DNA of 24,643 nt from a virus, in IMG/VR virus record IMGVR_UViG_3300035698_011533, positions 1 to 24,643 of that record; one strand, written 5' to 3'. The position numbers were made by a program, and so were the translations under genes. Shown piece after piece: positions 4,957 to 15,144 of the stretch. Each line of letters opens with the position of its first letter. The stretch's first letter is position 1. The notes beneath the pieces were generated by a model. The model had not been told where the DNA came from. It worked only from the letters and a program-made list of their open reading frames with translations, and ran no database searches.

Positions 4957-6072
4957 ATGGCGCGAAGAATGATTGTTTGTAAAAACTGTGGTAAAGAAGC
5001 AGAAAATAAGGGACGCGGGATGTGTTCTAATTGTTATAACAAACAACGACCAAAAAAAATATGTTCTATGTGTGGACAGTTGGCTTTAATTGATATTCAA
5101 AATGAAACCGAATCTATATGTAAAAAATGTTATGCGAGAAACCGTCCCAAAGAAAAGTGTTATGGTTGTGAAGAAAATAAAGTAATAGTATATAGAAAAG
5201 ATGAACCTTTATGTAGAAACTGTTATAGAAAACTAAAAGGTGTTAAAAAGGAAATATGTTCTGCCTGTAACGAACTTAAAACAGTAAATAGCAGGACAAG
5301 TGATGGCGCCCCACTATGTTCTAACTGTTACACAAAAACAAAGCCAAAAGAAGAATGTTCTAAATGTTTAAAGTTAGAAATTATTGTTTTTCGCAGTAAT
5401 AATATTAAAGTTTGCTCTATTTGTTATGGTAAATATTATAGACCAAAAAAGATATGTTCTATATGTTCGCGCAATTCAATAGTTGCCAAATATAATAATT
5501 TGCAACCTATTTGCGGAACTTGCTATAAAAATCAAAATATGAAAAAATGTCACATTTGCAATATGATAAAACCAGTAAATAAAACAGTTGACAATAAACA
5601 CTTTTGTACCGCATGTTATATGAGAGATTATACTAGACCGAAAAAGATTTGTGGTTGTTGCGGCAAACTAGATATAATTGAAAAAATTTACAATGGAGTT
5701 CAATTATGTTCTAGTTGCCATAGGAATTTACCAGAAGTTAAGGTAAGGCACTTTAACTGTCGCCAAAAATATAGATTATTAAGAGATAACTCTGGAAAGA
5801 TTACACTACAAGATTGGCTTAAACTTATGAAAACTACTGATTGGAAGTGTTTTTACTGTGAAAAATCTATTAGTTTCAAAAAGAATCGCACATTAGATCA
5901 TATTATACCAATTTCCAAAAATGGTAAAACAGCAGTGGAAAATCTAGTTCCATGTTGCCGTTCATGTAATGCTAGTAAAGGAAACAGAAATATTGAATTT
6001 TGGCTTAAACAAAAGAACATTGTTTTATCTGATGAAAAGTTAAAAAAATTAGGAGTTTATGATGGCATCTGA
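4957..6072 (+). CDS. HNH homing endonuclease with eight tandem zinc ribbons
   Basis: The 371-residue product has eight Cys4 modules in a row, each with two CxxC pairs: C8/C11-C23/C26, C36/C39-C55/C58, C68/C71-C86/C89, C101/C104-C121/C124, C134/C137-C153/C156, C167/C170-C186/C189, C198/C201-C217/C220 and C232/C235-C251/C254. Most modules are joined by a basic linker of the RPKKIC type. The C-terminus is an intact HNH nuclease: C298/C301, catalytic-type D314-H315 in LDHIIPIS, N329, C334/C337 and SKGNR. By family knowledge this is a free-standing homing endonuclease that cuts DNA lacking the gene. The zinc ribbons probably bind DNA. The start has a gggag site at 4947-4951. The TGA stop lies inside the next gene, so the endonuclease gene supplies that gene's Shine-Dalgarno. 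It is probably mobile cargo, not a virion protein. Confidence 0.88.
   Translation: MARRMIVCKNCGKEAENKGRGMCSNCYNKQRPKKICSMCGQLALIDIQNETESICKKCYARNRPKEKCYGCEENKVIVYRKDEPLCRNCYRKLKGVKKEICSACNELKTVNSRTSDGAPLCSNCYTKTKPKEECSKCLKLEIIVFRSNNIKVCSICYGKYYRPKKICSICSRNSIVAKYNNLQPICGTCYKNQNMKKCHICNMIKPVNKTVDNKHFCTACYMRDYTRPKKICGCCGKLDIIEKIYNGVQLCSSCHRNLPEVKVRHFNCRQKYRLLRDNSGKITLQDWLKLMKTTDWKCFYCEKSISFKKNRTLDHIIPISKNGKTAVENLVPCCRSCNASKGNRNIEFWLKQKNIVLSDEKLKKLGVYDGI
6051..6055 (+). promoter_or_regulatory. Ribosome binding site deciding the start at 6062
   Basis: AGGAG lies inside the last codons of the HNH gene. It is 6 nt before ATG 6062 and 3 nt before ATG 6059, so the second ATG is favoured. Its position means the inserted endonuclease either kept or recreated the downstream gene's site. 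Confidence 0.7.
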
Positions 6073-6814
6073 TCATAGGGTGTATAGCAATCTTTTTCAA
6101 GAAGCTGATTTTGTCCGCCAAGTCGCTGTTTCTCAAGGTAAAAACTTACTTATAGATGCCCTTAGAGAGTTTTTTAAACTTGATGTATTCTATAAATACG
6201 CAACAGATGGTTTTGGGTTTCCTTTAACTCCGGACCTAACAGACCTTCCAACAGACATGGAGGAAGATCGTACGACACGAATATATATAGGTGATGTTTT
6301 TCGCTACGACAAACGCTGGTGGCCCGCTATTGTGGTAAAATATTCTTCAGGAAGATACAAACCCACAAGCATGAATCAAAATCAAACTACCAGATATAGA
6401 ATGGATTTAGTTATAGATGGCTATGGTGAAAAATCTTGGGTTCGTGTTCCTACACATCACGTAGTAGCTGGTTCTTGGGAACAGAGTTTTGAGGTTTTAA
6501 TAGCATCGGAAAGCGTTCCAGATAGAGAAGAACTGACTGACATCGTTTCATCATTTTTAATAGGAAAGGCTAGACAGGAACTTTATGAGGCGGGTCTTTT
6601 TGTAAAGAGTGTCTCTATGAGCGGAGAAAGAGAAGAAGATTGGGGCAATGATAAAGTATATATGCAAAGCGTAACATTAGAAACTTTTTCAGAGTGGAAA
6701 CGAGAAATCCCAATAGATAGTATTGTGGAATCTTTGAATTTTTGTTTTAAATACGGGCTTTTTGGTGGAGACACTTCTATAGACACACTTCTTGTAGATT
6801 CATCTGATCTTTAA
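6062..6814 (+). CDS. Putative tail completion/tail terminator (neck) protein
   Basis: This is a 250-residue protein. I prefer the ATG at 6062 over the in-frame ATG at 6059: AGGAG at 6051-6055 is 6 nt from the former and only 3 nt from the latter. The N-terminus is helical (QEADFVRQVAVSQGKNLLID). A beta-rich middle follows (RIYIGDVFRYDKRWWPAIVV, SWVRVPTHHVVAGSWEQ). The C-terminal half has helix-strand features (DREELTDIVSSFLIGKARQEL, then ETFSEWKREIPID). No membrane segment is seen. It lies directly before the sheath and tube genes, where myoviruses often carry tail-terminator or neck proteins. The helix-plus-strand pattern ending in an SEWKREIP element fits that role but does not prove it. 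It overlaps the upstream HNH gene by 11 nt and meets the minus-strand gene in a shared TTAA. It could instead be another connector or a baseplate wedge protein. Confidence 0.5.
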   Translation: MASDHRVYSNLFQEADFVRQVAVSQGKNLLIDALREFFKLDVFYKYATDGFGFPLTPDLTDLPTDMEEDRTTRIYIGDVFRYDKRWWPAIVVKYSSGRYKPTSMNQNQTTRYRMDLVIDGYGEKSWVRVPTHHVVAGSWEQSFEVLIASESVPDREELTDIVSSFLIGKARQELYEAGLFVKSVSMSGEREEDWGNDKVYMQSVTLETFSEWKREIPIDSIVESLNFCFKYGLFGGDTSIDTLLVDSSDL

Positions 6815-7308
6815 GATTCTGTTTCCCATTTCCTAATTGTACTACAGTTTTTACAGAGCAATAGATAGTCTTTGATTTTTTCATTAGCCTTTTCTAAAGA
6901 CATATTTCGTATTTTGTGTATTTGAAAAGTACCACTTTTTGAGTAAAATTCATACACTGGGATTGGATAAGATATTTTACAGTCTTCACAAACTCCACCT
7001 CTTTCTTGTATGATTCGTTCTATTTTTTCTTCATATTTTAAATCTTTAACTTCTTTTTGACATTCTATACAATAACTAAAAGTTTTGCCGTTATTCTTTC
7101 TGGTATAGAAATTATTTTTGTTTTTTATTTTCTGACATCTAATACAATAGGCTTCGTTTTCTTTTAAATCTATGATATAAGACCTTGTATTTTTGCTGCC
7201 CAATGGAGAACATTTTAAACAAAATTTCCTTCCAGACAAGTTGATGATTTTATTATTAATTTTAATGCTGGTGGGAAATTTTTTGTTGCAGTTTTTACAT
7301 ATAATCAT
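6811..7308 (-). CDS. Degenerate HNH-type zinc-knuckle protein, probably nuclease-dead
   Basis: This is the only minus-strand gene (165 residues). It has its own Shine-Dalgarno, AGAGGTG on the minus strand (7313-7319), 4 nt before ATG. The layout matches a phage/metagenomic HNH family with three paired Cys knuckles: C4/C7-C30/C33, C55/C58-C80/C83 and C107/C110-C152/C155. Family members usually carry an EFHH..DP..K segment between the last two pairs and a His just after the final CxNC. Here the segment reads YEFYSKSGTFQI and CxNC is followed by Ser, so the catalytic and metal-binding histidines appear lost. The gene is convergent with the terminator candidate, sharing TTAA at 6811-6814. It diverges from the sheath gene across a regulatory gap. 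It may be a decaying homing endonuclease or a DNA-binding derivative. Confidence 0.7.
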   Translation of the reverse strand: MIICKNCNKKFPTSIKINNKIINLSGRKFCLKCSPLGSKNTRSYIIDLKENEAYCIRCQKIKNKNNFYTRKNNGKTFSYCIECQKEVKDLKYEEKIERIIQERGGVCEDCKISYPIPVYEFYSKSGTFQIHKIRNMSLEKANEKIKDYLLLCKNCSTIRKWETES

Positions 7309-10002: not shown

Positions 10003-10848
10003 ATGGGAAGAAGAAAAATAAATTTAGATTTTAAAAAAATAGGTGAGGAGTTTTTAAACGGAAGTGAACTAATACCGCTGGGAAAGAAATATGGGCTTTC
10101 TCAGTGGACCTTACTTGAAAGATTTAAAGAATTAGGCATTAGAAAAACAACAAAAAGATTTCTTAATAAAAAATCTTTTTCTTCCCATACGAAAGAGAAT
10201 TGTTATTGGGCGGGTTTTATCGCTGCTGACGGGTGGGTTCAAAAAAAATATTGTCTAGGTATTGAACTTTCTATTGTAGATAAATCACATTTAGATAAAT
10301 TTAGATTTTTTACAAAAAGTACTGCAGATATTAAAACTAGGACTAGGAAAAGTTTTAATAAAAAACGTAAATATTGTTCAATTCAGTTAAACTCTGTAGA
10401 TTTGATAAGAGATTTAGACATAAACTTTAACATAACTCGTGATAAATCTTTATCTTATGTGCCTCCAGAATTAAATTCAAACTTAATAAAACATTTTATT
10501 CGTGGGTATATGGATGGAGATGGCAGTATTGGTTGGCACAAACATAATCATACGATTAGATTAAATTTTTGTTCTGGCTCCGAATGTTTAATAGAATGGA
10601 TATTTAATCAAATTAAAGAGAATGTCGAACATGTAGGTAATCCGTCAACATCAAAAAGAGAGGGGTCAGAATTATATTCTGTAGAGTTTATGGGAAAGCA
10701 AGTAATAAATATTCTTTATTGGATTTATTCAGATTCGGTCGGTGAAACTAGATTGGAAAGAAAATATAACTCATTTCTTAATTGTTTAGAAAAGTACTTG
10801 GAAAAACAAAATGGCTTACCCACCAAGCAAAAGCAGAACAGATTCTAA
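10003..10848 (+). CDS. Free-standing LAGLIDADG homing endonuclease
   Basis: This 281-residue protein has two LAGLIDADG-type motifs: YWAGFIAADG (68-77, acidic residue D76) and HFIRGYMDGDG (164-174, acidic residue D173). Both metal-binding aspartates are present, so it could be active as a monomer. Residues about 10-50 look like a helix-turn-helix (LIPLGKKYGLSQWTLLERF). It lies between the sheath and the first tube gene, both of which are complete, so it is neither an intein nor obviously intron-borne. Its ribosome binding site is weak (tagag region, 9991-9995). Its last 38 bases overlap the start of the tube gene in another frame, so it gains its stop codon from tube sequence. The coding sequence looks more Lys/Asn-rich than the structural genes, in line with mobile DNA. 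Confidence 0.88.
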   Translation: MGRRKINLDFKKIGEEFLNGSELIPLGKKYGLSQWTLLERFKELGIRKTTKRFLNKKSFSSHTKENCYWAGFIAADGWVQKKYCLGIELSIVDKSHLDKFRFFTKSTADIKTRTRKSFNKKRKYCSIQLNSVDLIRDLDINFNITRDKSLSYVPPELNSNLIKHFIRGYMDGDGSIGWHKHNHTIRLNFCSGSECLIEWIFNQIKENVEHVGNPSTSKREGSELYSVEFMGKQVINILYWIYSDSVGETRLERKYNSFLNCLEKYLEKQNGLPTKQKQNRF

Positions 10849-11419
10849 AATTTCCACCGGCCTTTCTACTCAAATGACCATAAAGGTCGGTGGAGTTACC
10901 GTCGGAGCTATACAACAAATTGCAATAACTCAAAATAGAGAAATGCAAATTTGGCAAGAAATAGGCACAGATGGAATCGTAGAAATTCATCCTAAAGGCG
11001 CTGCTAAAGTCGAATTACAAATTAACAGAGCGGTGTTTGATGATTTGAGACTTCCAGAAGCATTTGCTAGAGGATTTATTAATATTCAGGCTCAAAGAAT
11101 CCCTTTTGATATTGAAATTATGGATGGATCTAATGCAGACTCGGGAAAGAATTATATAGTTCATACTTATAATAATTGTTGGTTTAGAGCATATTCTCCT
11201 ACTTACAGAGCAGACAATTTTTTAGTAGTAGAAAATGCAACTGTTGTAGCTCAATATGTAACCACAACTCGCGATTCTGTTAGTGCAGTTCTAGGTGGGA
11301 TTAGAGGAATAGCTTATGAAACGGACAGTGTTGAGAGATCTACAGATGTAAATGGAAGAGTGGGAAGATTGGAACCTACATCTTTTGGTTCCGCAATAGG
11401 TGGAAATTTAGCAGGTTAG
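10811..11419 (+). CDS. Tail tube protein, copy 1
   Basis: This 202-residue protein starts MAYPPSKSRTDSK and aligns from its first residue with the next gene, which fixes the start. Shared blocks include STGLSTQ, VTVGAIQ, RLPEAFARGFINI, IPFDIEI, CWF..YSP.Y.ADNF and a VENATV/QESATI segment. A beta-rich protein of this size following the sheath gene is the usual tube protein of contractile tails, which stacks as hexameric rings and carries the DNA channel. The start lies 38 nt inside the LAGLIDADG gene and has only a weak upstream GGA (10800-10802), so its translation may depend on the endonuclease gene being read. The C-terminal tail differs from copy 2. Confidence 0.8.
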   Translation: MAYPPSKSRTDSKISTGLSTQMTIKVGGVTVGAIQQIAITQNREMQIWQEIGTDGIVEIHPKGAAKVELQINRAVFDDLRLPEAFARGFINIQAQRIPFDIEIMDGSNADSGKNYIVHTYNNCWFRAYSPTYRADNFLVVENATVVAQYVTTTRDSVSAVLGGIRGIAYETDSVERSTDVNGRVGRLEPTSFGSAIGGNLAG

Positions 11420-11458: not shown

Positions 11459-12064
11459 ATGACTTATCCGGTGACAGGAAGTACTCTTAATAGCACCATT
11501 TCGACAGGTCTTAGTACACAGATTTTAGTTAAGGTTGAGAATGTTACCGTTGGTGCAATTCAAAGTCTTTCTATTGATCAAAGTAGAGGTCTAAAAAGAG
11601 TAGGTGAAGTAGGTTTGGATGGAGTGTTGGAGATCGTACCTAATGCCCCAACAGAACACAGCGCAACAATCGAACGTATTGTGTATGACAGATTACGACT
11701 TCCAGAAGCGTTTGCCAGAGGTTTTATTAACATTAAAGCTCAATTGATTCCTTTTGACATTGAGATCATTGATAGGACTGCGGGCGATGGTTCTGAAATA
11801 GTTCATGTATTTTCGAAATGTTGGTTTAATAAGTATAGTCCAAAATATACTGCTGACAACTTTATTCTTCAAGAAAGTGCAACTATCTGGATCGAAGATA
11901 TTAGCACGCATCTTGGAAACTCTCAAGCTAGCGCCGTTAATGGTGGTGATCGTGGTATTCCGTATGTTTCAGATGTCTTTGGAAGAGAAAGAGAAACGGA
12001 CGCTGGAAATAAGGGATATAGAGGAACCATGGATGTTACTGACATCATGCACTCTATAGAGTAA
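11459..12064 (+). CDS. Tail tube protein, copy 2 (paralogue)
   Basis: This 201-residue protein is clearly homologous to the preceding gene (by eye about 40-50 percent identical), with RLPEAFARGFINI and IPFDIEI identical in both. It has a strong GGAGG site in its 39-nt leader. The C-terminal 40 residues diverge (ending DVTDIMHSIE in place of the Gly-rich end of copy 1). Known contractile tails can use tube-like proteins in distinct places, for example T4 gp19 for the tube and gp54 at the baseplate junction. One of the pair could therefore be the main tube and the other an initiator or cap, or both could build a mixed tube. Which copy does which cannot be told here. Confidence 0.78.
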   Translation: MTYPVTGSTLNSTISTGLSTQILVKVENVTVGAIQSLSIDQSRGLKRVGEVGLDGVLEIVPNAPTEHSATIERIVYDRLRLPEAFARGFINIKAQLIPFDIEIIDRTAGDGSEIVHVFSKCWFNKYSPKYTADNFILQESATIWIEDISTHLGNSQASAVNGGDRGIPYVSDVFGRERETDAGNKGYRGTMDVTDIMHSIE

Positions 12065-12185: not shown

Positions 12186-12632
12186 ATGGTAGAATTAAGT
12201 CATAAAGTATTAGGAACCGTTGGCGCTATTAAAGAACAGCCTGTCAGTATGATGTCTGCAATAGACATAAGATCTTTAATAGGACTAGGGTGTATTAAAG
12301 ATGAAATTGTTATTGGCGATTTTTCATTTTCGTTAAAATCTTTAAGTACTGAAGAAAAGCTTGAATTGGGAAAATATTTGGAATCAGATAAAGAAGAGAA
12401 GGGATTGTTTGAAATCAATATGAGAATGTTAAGTATGTCTATAGAATCTGTAAATGGAAAACCTTTTGAGTACTTGCATCCTAAATATTCTCCAGAGAGC
12501 GATGTTGTAGATCTAAAAGTTAATATTTTAAAATCTATGCAACCTCCTGTTATTCATAAATTGCTACTATTTTATAATGAGATAAACAACAGGTGTGATG
12601 CTCAGTTTGATATGGAGCAAGTAAAAAAATAG
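12186..12632 (+). CDS. Tail assembly chaperone, short form (gpG-like)
   Basis: The unshifted product has 148 residues ending in VKK at UAG. It is an acidic, helical protein (LSTEEKLELGKYLES, DLKVNILKSM) with no membrane segment. The identification rests on context: it lies between the tube genes and the tape measure, and it ends on a canonical frameshift signal leading into the overlapping frame. This is the conserved arrangement of lambda G/G-T type tail chaperones across tailed phages. The short form is expected to be the major product and to coat the tape measure during tail assembly, being absent from the virion. The start is set by AGAGGTG, 5 nt upstream. Confidence 0.8.
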   Translation: MVELSHKVLGTVGAIKEQPVSMMSAIDIRSLIGLGCIKDEIVIGDFSFSLKSLSTEEKLELGKYLESDKEEKGLFEINMRMLSMSIESVNGKPFEYLHPKYSPESDVVDLKVNILKSMQPPVIHKLLLFYNEINNRCDAQFDMEQVKK

Positions 12633-12656
12633 CAATGGAGCCTGGACATCGGCTCC
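12623..12656 (+). promoter_or_regulatory. Programmed -1 ribosomal frameshift signal
   Basis: The slippery heptamer A AAA AAA (12623-12629) is in the correct phase (GTA AAA AAA TAG), and the zero-frame stop follows immediately. After a 7-nt spacer (12630-12636) comes a perfect 6-bp GC-rich stem, GGAGCC (12637-12642) with GGCTCC (12651-12656), and an 8-nt loop TGGACATC. Spacing and phase match known prokaryotic -1 signals. The exact complement of the loop, GATGTCCA, lies at 12719-12726. Confidence 0.88.
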
Positions 12657-13045
12657 GCTGGAAGCTATGTAAGCTTTTCAGAGTTCCTGTAGATAGTAAG
12701 AAACTGAATACAATTAGCGATGTCCAAATGTTGTGGTATCAGTTTCAAGATCATTTCGATAATAAAGACTCTTTTGAATTATTAAGAGATGTTGCAGAAC
12801 ATAATGCTATGTTTTCTAATCCCGAAGGTGTTCAACAAATTAGAGATGCTCGTAAGAACACTTACGAGACTCCTCTTGATGATTTTAGTAAATTGGTAGA
12901 AGAAGCTTTCGGTAGACCTATGCCTGTTATCGATGAAAAAAATAAAACAACAAATGATTTAATGAATGACATAAGAAGTTCTGATACGATCAAACCATAT
13001 TTAGATTTCGAATTAGATGAAGTTAAATTTACTCCTTTTGAATGA
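12629..13045 (+). CDS. Tail assembly chaperone, frameshift extension (gpT-like)
   Basis: This is the -1 frame read after slippage. Codons resume at 12629 (Ile, Ala, then Met at 12635) and run 138 residues to TGA 13043-13045, giving a 286-residue fusion with the upstream 148. The T part starts with a basic stretch (GHRLRWKLCKLFRVPVDSKKL), followed by MLWYQFQDHF and acidic helices. The ATG at 12635 has no usable ribosome binding site (the nearest GGAG, 12614-12617, is 17 nt away), which supports expression only as a fusion. In known systems the T part recruits tube subunits to the chaperone-coated tape measure. The tape-measure gene follows 11 nt later. Confidence 0.85.
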   Translation: MAMEPGHRLRWKLCKLFRVPVDSKKLNTISDVQMLWYQFQDHFDNKDSFELLRDVAEHNAMFSNPEGVQQIRDARKNTYETPLDDFSKLVEEAFGRPMPVIDEKNKTTNDLMNDIRSSDTIKPYLDFELDEVKFTPFE

Positions 13046-13056
13046 GGTTATGATAA

Positions 13057-15144
13057 ATGGCTGATGAAACCCTAACTGTCTTAGATGCGAAAGCTGTAAT
13101 TGAACAAGGCAGAAATATGGACAAATTAGGTGAGACTTATAGAAGAGTTGCAAAAGATGTAAGTGCAACTAAAGATGAGATTAAAAAAGCTGCCGACGCT
13201 TATAGACAGTCTCAAGTGGCATTTGACAACCACTATAATAGTTTAAATGAAATTGATCAAAAAAGTGTAAGCCTCACAAGATCCACTGAAGGATTAAAAA
13301 AATCTATTACTGATGTTACTTCAGCTTTTGGTATGGCGAACACAAAATCTGGCGATCTTGCTTCAAGTCTTGGCGGGAGTTTAATAGATAGTGCTAAAGG
13401 TGTAGGTAAAGCATTTCTCGCAACATCTCCAACTATTCGAGATTTTATAAATCCGCTTGGTGAGGCTAATTTATTATCCAATGCATCTATTCCTATATTA
13501 GGCAGCCTTCAAAAGGCAATGAAGAATCTGCTTACAACTCAAACTACTGCTAGATTATCTTTCATAATGTTAGGCGGTAGTATAGATAAGGCTAATGAGG
13601 CTGCGTTAAACTATCCAAAGACATTGAGAGATATGTCTTCTCTAACTGGAATCTCTACGAAAAGTTTAGATGAGATGAATAAAGTAATGAGGGGTATTCC
13701 AGGAGTAATGGATAGGATTACTGCCACTAGCAAGAACATTGGGATTGATAAAATATTTGGCAAGTCTGTACAACCCGTTGCTATTTTAGGTGTTGTTATG
13801 ACTGCGTTCGGCAAAACTTCTGCCGAAGCCGCAAAGTTTGGTGCCGAGGCTTGGTATAATTTTAACCAAAAGCCACCAGAAACAATTAGACAAATGGGGC
13901 TTGTTGCTGCAGCCGCGAAGGATACTAATGTAGATCTTGGAAAAACTCACGATCAAATTTTAGCCGCTAGTCAAAGCATGGCTCTTTTTGGTGGAAAAAC
14001 TGCTGTAGCGTCTAATGTTTGGCGAACATTTAACACTGCTCTTAAAGATAGTGGGGTTCCTATTAATGCTATTGGATCTATGGTTACTGATTTAGTAGCA
14101 AAGATGGCAAACATGACTACACAAAATAGAGCTTTCATAGGTTTGATGAGCGGAATGTCTCGTGGAAGTACGGCTCTTGGTGGAGCCCTTAAAATGGAGA
14201 TGAATTTAAGAAGTCCCGGCGGCCTTGAGAAAAATCTTGAAGCTATGACCAGTACTCTCTCCAGATTTGGTGGCGGCAAAATAATTACTCTAGAGCAAGC
14301 GGCTAACAATCCTCAACTTGAAATGCAGTTTGTTTTACAAAGACAGATGTTAGGAAAGTTAACAGGTATTTCAAATCCCGAACAACAAAACAGAATACTA
14401 CAAACTTTAGGAAAAGTTCAAGAGGGTGGAATCACTAGGCTTCAAGGAACCAAAGCGTTGCAAGATGTTTACGCAAAGGGAAAAACCGTACAAGATAAAA
14501 TGCTTACTGTTTTAGAAAGAATTGATCAAGGCATTAGAGCTTCCATTGGTGGTAAATTTGACGGATTCCTTAATAAAATAGATAGCTCAATACGGCAATC
14601 TGATACTGGCAACTTAAGAAGATCTGGTACAGGTGCTCTTGAAAATTTTAATGATGCTGCTGGATATTTAGGTGTAGGTAGAAGAGATAAATTCGAAATA
14701 GCTGCTGGGCAACTTGGCAATGCAACTAAAGGAATTGGGAACAAATCGCAGATGCCGGATAAACTCAACTTCAATCCGAGTATAGGAGATTTAGGTAGCA
14801 ACTATGCTAGCGGCCTTACTGGTAATTTAGGTTTCCCTGGTCTCTCTAATCCGAATCTTACAAAACTTCCAATGTTTCCGGGTATTACCGCAGTTCCTCG
14901 TGCTCCTATGTTACCAGAACATAGGGCAATTGCTCCACCTCAAATGTTAAACAACAGAACATCTGAAGCAATTGCTCCTAAAGCGGAAGGTCAAGCAAAG
15001 GCTAATGGTTTTCATGTACTTACTATAAAAATAGACGGCGATCCGGCTATGGAAAATATTTTGAAAAACATTATGGCAAAAGTTCCACCTATTGTGAAAA
15101 AAGAAATAGAAAAAGAAGCTGGCAAAATACTAGGAATAAGGTAA
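13057..15144 (+). CDS. Probable tape measure protein
   Basis: This 695-residue protein has an N-terminal coiled-coil-like region (RNMDKLGETYRRVAKDVSA, KDEIKKAADAYRQ). A long Ala/Gly/Met-rich helical middle has moderately hydrophobic stretches (VAILGVVMTAFG, AIGSMVTDLVAKMANM). A Pro/Asn/Gly-rich low-complexity zone covers about residues 560-650, and a charged helix ends the protein (VPPIVKKEIEKEAGKIL). It directly follows the chaperone pair, the standard place for the tape measure, and such proteins are recognised by position and composition more than by motif. At roughly 0.15 nm per residue it would set a tail of about 100 nm. It is short compared with tape measures of many large phages. ATG 13057 has TGAGGT 8 nt upstream, overlapping the chaperone stop. 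Confidence 0.75.
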   Translation: MADETLTVLDAKAVIEQGRNMDKLGETYRRVAKDVSATKDEIKKAADAYRQSQVAFDNHYNSLNEIDQKSVSLTRSTEGLKKSITDVTSAFGMANTKSGDLASSLGGSLIDSAKGVGKAFLATSPTIRDFINPLGEANLLSNASIPILGSLQKAMKNLLTTQTTARLSFIMLGGSIDKANEAALNYPKTLRDMSSLTGISTKSLDEMNKVMRGIPGVMDRITATSKNIGIDKIFGKSVQPVAILGVVMTAFGKTSAEAAKFGAEAWYNFNQKPPETIRQMGLVAAAAKDTNVDLGKTHDQILAASQSMALFGGKTAVASNVWRTFNTALKDSGVPINAIGSMVTDLVAKMANMTTQNRAFIGLMSGMSRGSTALGGALKMEMNLRSPGGLEKNLEAMTSTLSRFGGGKIITLEQAANNPQLEMQFVLQRQMLGKLTGISNPEQQNRILQTLGKVQEGGITRLQGTKALQDVYAKGKTVQDKMLTVLERIDQGIRASIGGKFDGFLNKIDSSIRQSDTGNLRRSGTGALENFNDAAGYLGVGRRDKFEIAAGQLGNATKGIGNKSQMPDKLNFNPSIGDLGSNYASGLTGNLGFPGLSNPNLTKLPMFPGITAVPRAPMLPEHRAIAPPQMLNNRTSEAIAPKAEGQAKANGFHVLTIKIDGDPAMENILKNIMAKVPPIVKKEIEKEAGKILGIR

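Follow-up and report, generated by a model that had tools for sequence, protein, structure and literature searches.

A −1 frameshift signal in the tail assembly chaperone gene of a phage family: a conserved hairpin, a predicted proximal pseudoknot in relatives and a candidate distal arm in three members

Introduction

Tail chaperone frameshifts fix the ratio of two proteins that are required for the building of phage tails. The window (the whole stretch of DNA analysed here, an IMG/VR virus record of 24,643 bases) carries a putative site of this type, in which the loop of a hairpin is complementary to a sequence located further downstream. The question raised by this locus is whether the match is the second arm of a pseudoknot or is due to the encoded proteins. 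A preliminary description, made from the window alone, proposed both a −1 frameshift with a hairpin and a long-range pseudoknot.

The large and mostly uncultured phage family to which the window belongs provides 50 natural variants of one signal, in which a predicted RNA hairpin and a predicted pseudoknot are encoded within a conserved protein motif. The survival of a recoding structure after the loss of one of its arms is now testable. The best overall explanation (probability of about 0.75) includes a −1 frameshift in the chaperone gene, a probably ancestral proximal pseudoknot and, in the window, a distal replacement with roughly even odds.

Genomic context and sampling of relatives

Positions are those of the window. 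The features of the chaperone junction and the two genes that flank it are on the plus strand. The window includes a contractile-tail block: sheath, two tail-tube-like paralogues, chaperone, tape-measure-like long ORF and later tail proteins. The frame-0 ORF (12186..12632; 148 aa, ending in VKK-stop) corresponds to the short form of the tail assembly chaperone and is located between the tail tube gene and the tape-measure-like ORF. Its weak matches to PHROG tail assembly chaperones (E 2e-4) are the only ones found in the family, none of the six other family proteins tried giving any. The proteins encoded at the chaperone position in relatives are 27–53% identical.

The upstream neighbour (11459..12064), second of two tandem copies, encodes a tail tube-like protein that matches phrog_985 (virion structural protein, E 1e-12); the name "tube" is given according to position and gene order and is therefore putative. 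The long ORF just 3′ of the chaperone (13057..15144) presumably encodes the tape measure protein, according to its position and length, to its counterparts in relatives and to the annotated tape measure gene found at the same place in phage G. The tandem tube-like genes (10811–11419 and 11459–12064) are preceded by an ORF encoding a LAGLIDADG homing endonuclease (10003–10848), located between the sheath gene and the first of them; its last 38 bases overlap the beginning of that tube ORF as listed. The second tube-like copy is found in most relatives spanning the region. The ORF 4957–6072 encodes an HNH endonuclease in which zinc-ribbon-like CxxC modules are repeated, and a second cysteine-rich CxxC ORF (6811–7308) lies within the tail block on the opposite (minus) strand.

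Relatives were gathered from IMG/VR with the 1565-aa ORF, then the tube protein, then the extension protein as baits. This sample includes 50 distinct junctions, among them that of the window; L142 is a later addition on top of the 50. Searches of annotated phages by tblastn, with the chaperone, the extension, the tube protein and the 1565-aa ORF as queries, found no close relative, and phage G was reached only when divergent family members were used as queries. Searches of GTDB genomes and of Rfam gave no match.

The frameshift site

The slippery heptamer A AAA AAA (12623..12629) is in the phase A/AAA/AAA of the ORF 12186–12632 and is directly followed by the frame-0 stop UAG (TAG in the DNA, 12630..12632). 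The −1 frame (12629..13045; 138 aa, starting with IAMEPGHRLRWKLCK) encodes a C-terminal extension that carries a motif conserved in relatives, EPxHRLRWKLCK. A −1 slip at the heptamer joins the ORF 12186–12632 to the frame ending at 13045, which gives a fusion of 286 aa. The features named in the preliminary description, among them also the spacer, the stem, the loop, the distal match and a small hairpin, AAGCT/AGCTT, at 12662–12676, are all present at the positions given there.

Homologous heptamers are found in relatives. Among the 50 distinct junctions, A AAA AAN is found in 45 (A7, 27; A6C, 16; A6G, 1; A6T, 1) and U UUA AAA (TTTAAAA in the DNA) in five. The −1 relation of the two frames and the presence of a zero-frame stop at most one codon from the heptamer are found in 50/50 junctions. 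In the five elements with U UUA AAA (L023, L063, L071, L079 and L082), this heptamer is located one codon upstream and replaces the usual one; the hairpin and the fusion are retained. The SD-like GGAG located 5′ of the heptamer is not conserved among relatives.

The −1 programmed frameshift is thus well supported by sequence comparison. It is real in a comparative sense, since the 50 junctions keep the architecture and phage G is annotated likewise; the frameshift and the hairpin proposed in the preliminary description both gain strong support from these junctions. The frameshift itself is ordinary and of a known kind (PMC5009743; PMC10885494 deals with its frequency). Ribosomes stalled by the hairpin would slip from A AAA AAA to AAA AAA and bypass the UAG. 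Those that slipped would add the 138-residue domain, leading to a minor long chaperone alongside the major short one. The architecture is conserved; slippage in vivo and the ratio of the two proteins are predictions made from it.

The fusion, or the extension, could be produced in two other ways. The extension could be made separately, by reinitiation at the ATG at 12635 after the UAG and with no frameshift. This ATG, two bases past the stop, makes the window an exception: 42 of the 50 junctions have no ATG, GTG or TTG before or within the conserved extension motif, although the frame that encodes the extension is conserved, so that a separate start is generally impossible. The heptamer is also either conserved or swapped for another valid one, and reinitiation is extremely unlikely. 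Slippage of the RNA polymerase on the A7 tract, instead of ribosomal slippage, would yield the same fusion and would fit the seven A's in a row of the window. It is very unlikely in view of the 16 relatives that have six A's followed by C and of the five that have UUUAAAA, with four A's; the hairpin is kept in these relatives, a pattern that fits tandem tRNA slippage.

The hairpin S1

The stem S1 includes a 5′ arm, GGAGCC (12637..12642), and a 3′ arm, GGCTCC (12651..12656), that form five G-C pairs and one A-U pair. They enclose the 8-nt loop TGGACATC (12643..12650), which is the pseudoknot loop in relatives. The spacer is 7 nt long (12630–12636). The energy of the window hairpin (−13.2 kcal/mol; z = −3.05; 0/200 shuffles) is beyond that expected by chance. 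The 6-bp/8-nt architecture is retained in all 50 junctions. Over these sequences, 96.7% of the S1 cells are paired, and three of the six pairs have changes on both sides; the pair changes among relatives are G-C to U-A, C-G to U-A and G-C to U-G.

Because S1 overlaps the protein motif EPxHRLRW, the effect of coding was checked. Leu in the 3′ arm is encoded by CTC in 44/50 sequences (0.06 genome-wide), and the Glu codon is GAG in the 40/40 sequences that have Glu at this position (0.35 genome-wide). The synonymous-codon null is rejected (Fisher p 4e-60, relatedness ignored). Among the structures predicted in this family, S1 is the most conserved.

The predicted proximal pseudoknot

Trp-His loops (TGGCAY) are found in 22 of the 50 sequences, or 23 when L142 is included. 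In 22 of these 23, the GGCAY of the loop pairs with GUGCC, encoded by Val-Pro codons. This proximal arm is located at offset 54–58 from the start of the −1 frame, 26 nt past S1, and the predicted fold is a classical H-type pseudoknot. The GGCAY/GUGCC pairing is complete (100%) in the 22 Trp-loop sequences, and four of its five pairs are invariant. As these four pairs never vary, the support for the proximal pseudoknot is codon choice and not covariation.

The proximal Val codon is GTG in 22/22 Trp-loop sequences (22/23 with L142), for a genome mean of 0.14; the product of the GTG codon frequencies over the 22 sequences is 1.5e-20 (relatedness ignored). As a control, GTG is used for the next Val in 0/15. 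Non-Trp relatives that have Val at the proximal site use GTT or GTA. After permutation of the loops among sequences, 11.0 pairings are expected at the proximal offset, versus 22 observed, a number reached in 0/2000 permutations. When the p-values for the proximal arm are combined by Fisher's method, the result (4.7e-5) appears weak, an effect of the discreteness of the individual p-values; the codon-frequency product given above is the suitable measure, although it takes no account of relatedness.

In Trp-loop relatives, pairing of the loop with a downstream sequence is thus conserved beyond what coding imposes. The proximal pseudoknot is probably ancestral, since Trp-loop members are found in both halves of the tree. 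The ancestral geometry would be: S1, 6 bp; L1, 2 nt; S2, 5 bp; L2, 1 nt; L3, 26 nt. This is a case, in a phage tail gene, of a downstream pseudoknot backed by codon choice and not by folding alone.

In the window, the site of the proximal arm is at 12683..12687. This site reads GTTCC, which gives 3/5 pairs: the proximal arm is lost and the site is unpaired. In L142 (L142:2501-2630), the Trp loop and A AAA AAC are kept, S1 is broken by two mismatches and the proximal arm is GTTCC, both elements having decayed together. The idea of the preliminary description that the loop forms a pseudoknot therefore holds for the family; the partner conserved there, however, is a nearer site (+54), whose pairing arm the window has lost. 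The conserved pseudoknot of the family is invisible from the window alone.

The distal site

The candidate replacement partner of the S1 loop is the distal arm GATGTCCA (12719..12726), which is the exact reverse complement of TGGACATC. At offset 90–97, the pairing is 8/8 in the window, 8/8 in L002 (including one G-U) and 7/8 in L044. The other sequences have 0–5 pairs, the distal contact being missing in 47/50 sequences. The loops of the window, L002 and L044 encode Pro-Gly-His with CCT for Pro, and none of the three has the proximal arm. L078 and L011, which also have Gly-containing loops, are unpaired at the distal site. In the window, L002 and L044, the distal site is the lowest-energy partner of the loop within 250 nt (−11.0, −10.1 and −9.1 kcal/mol, respectively); the next-best partner is at −5.5 kcal/mol or weaker in L002 and L044, and at −7.5 kcal/mol (+198) in the window.

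The loop and arm of the window and L002 differ by a double change (A-U to G-C) and by a G-C to G-U change. Since only 34% of the four-fold sites (138/401 in the 1565-aa ORF) are identical between the two, L002 is approximately an independent draw at silent positions. Under synonymous recoding of loop and arm, p is 0.013 (window), 0.001 (L002) and 0.036 (L044). The signal is carried by the loop: when only the loop codons are recoded, p is 0.02 (window), 0.004 (L002) and 0.10 (L044), and when only the arm codons are recoded, the distal pairing arises in 34–48% of cases in these three elements. The pairing for which the preliminary description proposed a covariation check is kept in the window, L002 and L044, with one compensatory double change and moderate statistics, and is absent in all the others; the distal site is a reasonable candidate for a replacement partner.

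The codons under the distal arm encode the conserved residues D-(A/V)-Q. Many family members share the arm sequence GATGCYCA, and the loops of L002 and L044 would pair just as well with the arms of 8 and 11, respectively, of the 49 other sequences. The window, L002 and L044 may be one lineage: their monophyly stands in the AU test (p-AU 0.445, no rejection), although L044 is set apart in the best tree. Because the arm sequence is common and the three elements may share one origin, the distal pseudoknot in the window is given, on these comparisons, a little under an even chance. In the window, a Watson-Crick run of 8 bp between the loop and downstream sequence is found in 0.15% of synonymous recodings of both, and, with the loop left as it is and the downstream codons recoded, in 5%; eight pairs at the exact distal site are found in 1.3% of recodings. 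The chance of once in a thousand advanced for such an 8-mer was too optimistic given coding.

If all eight pairs between loop and arm were formed, L1 and L2 would be zero. Zero-length L1 and L2 are infeasible for H-type pseudoknots. The preliminary description had rightly pointed out that full pairing leaves no first crossing loop; with the six pairs GACAUC/GAUGUC, L1 is 2 nt, S2 is 6 bp and L3 is 62 nt. The simple energy sum of the pseudoknot is about −31 kcal/mol (no pseudoknot penalty included), versus −27.6 kcal/mol for the best nested fold. Thermodynamics is not decisive, because this comparison precedes any pseudoknot penalty. The distal arm is also held in the loop of a predicted stem-loop, GAAACTGA-A-TAC / GTA-TCAGTTTC (12700..12746; −12.5 kcal/mol; z −2.84; synonymous null p 0.028); this stem-loop was looked for in L002 and L044, where it is not conserved, and was found in the window only.

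The distal match could be explained by a switch of the second arm of the pseudoknot: Trp would have been replaced by Gly in the loop, GUGCC would have been lost and the loop would have recruited a site located 36 nt further downstream. The new site would already have been nearly complementary through the conserved Asp-Ala-Gln codons, and the pseudoknot would persist with a third loop of 62 nt in place of 26 nt. In the lineage of the window, in which Gly-His would have replaced Trp-His and the proximal arm would have been lost, 12719–12726 would act as the replacement with 6–7 of the eight pairs, at about even odds, the hairpin acting alone otherwise. The switch as a whole is still more tentative than the distal pairing; a change of pseudoknot partner from lineage to lineage would be new, if true.

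Stimulation by the hairpin alone in the window, with a probability near one half, is the serious rival of the distal pseudoknot. The heptamer and S1 would suffice, the ancestral pseudoknot would be lost and the GATGTCCA match would have arisen by coincidence from the P-G-H and D-V-Q codons. The distal arm is indeed largely coding-driven (up to 0.48 with only arm codons redrawn), the 8-bp match arises in one in 20 of the downstream-only recodings (5%, see above), and for most non-Trp-loop relatives neither of the two sites tested offers a consistent partner. A coincidence fits less well with the 8/8 pairing of L002, obtained at a pre-named site (p 0.001) despite saturated synonymous sites (34% same at four-fold sites), with the 7/8 pairing of L044 (p 0.036) and with the loss of the proximal arm in the window, L002 and L044. 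The loop and the distal arm could also form a nested 9-bp hairpin that opens S1 and acts as a switch or attenuator, not as a pseudoknot. Such a duplex is present in the minimum free energy fold of the isolated segment 12630–12740, the nested fold at −27.6 kcal/mol mentioned above; however, it would disrupt the most conserved structure of the family, and folds that include upstream sequence retain S1. It is considered unlikely.

Comparison with known systems

Bacillus phage G (JN638751.1) is a cultured remote relative. Its tail assembly chaperone is annotated in two pieces, gp181/gp182, which are followed by the tape measure gene, the same order as in the window. The site includes A AAA AAC UAG, with a hairpin spaced much as in the family, and the extension is about 27% identical to those of family members. 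The stem differs (GCGAC/GUCGU), and the loop is neither of the Trp-His nor of the Gly-His type.

As in G/G-T of phage lambda, the −1 frameshift is located close to the end of the short form, produces a minor long form and concerns a chaperone whose client is the tape measure protein, according to the part of PMC5009743 that deals with this system; no downstream pseudoknot is described for G/G-T in that part. The Trp-loop relatives resemble H-type −1 stimulators in that the S1 loop pairs downstream and L1 and L2 are short. In this family, unlike in these stimulators, the second arm is encoded within a conserved protein motif, and it has been lost, perhaps moved, between lineages.

In IS3411-type pseudoknots of bacteria, a first stem-loop pairs through its apical loop with another one located 44–104 nt downstream (section of PMC5009743 citing Mazauric 2008). 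Compared with that summary, the arm of the window is 62 nt past S1, inside a predicted stem-loop, but conservation of this predicted stem-loop does not extend to L002 and L044, and the arm would lie in its apical, not internal, loop. The resemblance is only formal.

Other matches of the loop

For the Y- and S-loop clades, a possible third site near +103, on Trp-Tyr codons, was considered as a partner (0/2000 in one register). It was not counted, because its pairs either are rich in G-U or are dictated by the encoded residues (e.g. TACCA/TGGTA). A pattern match in L131 was found to be unrelated. In L064, the loop ATACCAAA has its exact complement in TTTGGTAT, at offset 103–110 from L064:2501, an isolated 8-bp match. 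This match, on Leu-Trp-Tyr codons, may represent such a third site for the Y-loop clade and is largely coding-driven. In L011, a 6-bp partner (GTCAAC/GTTGAC) is found shifted by 6 nt, in this single sequence.
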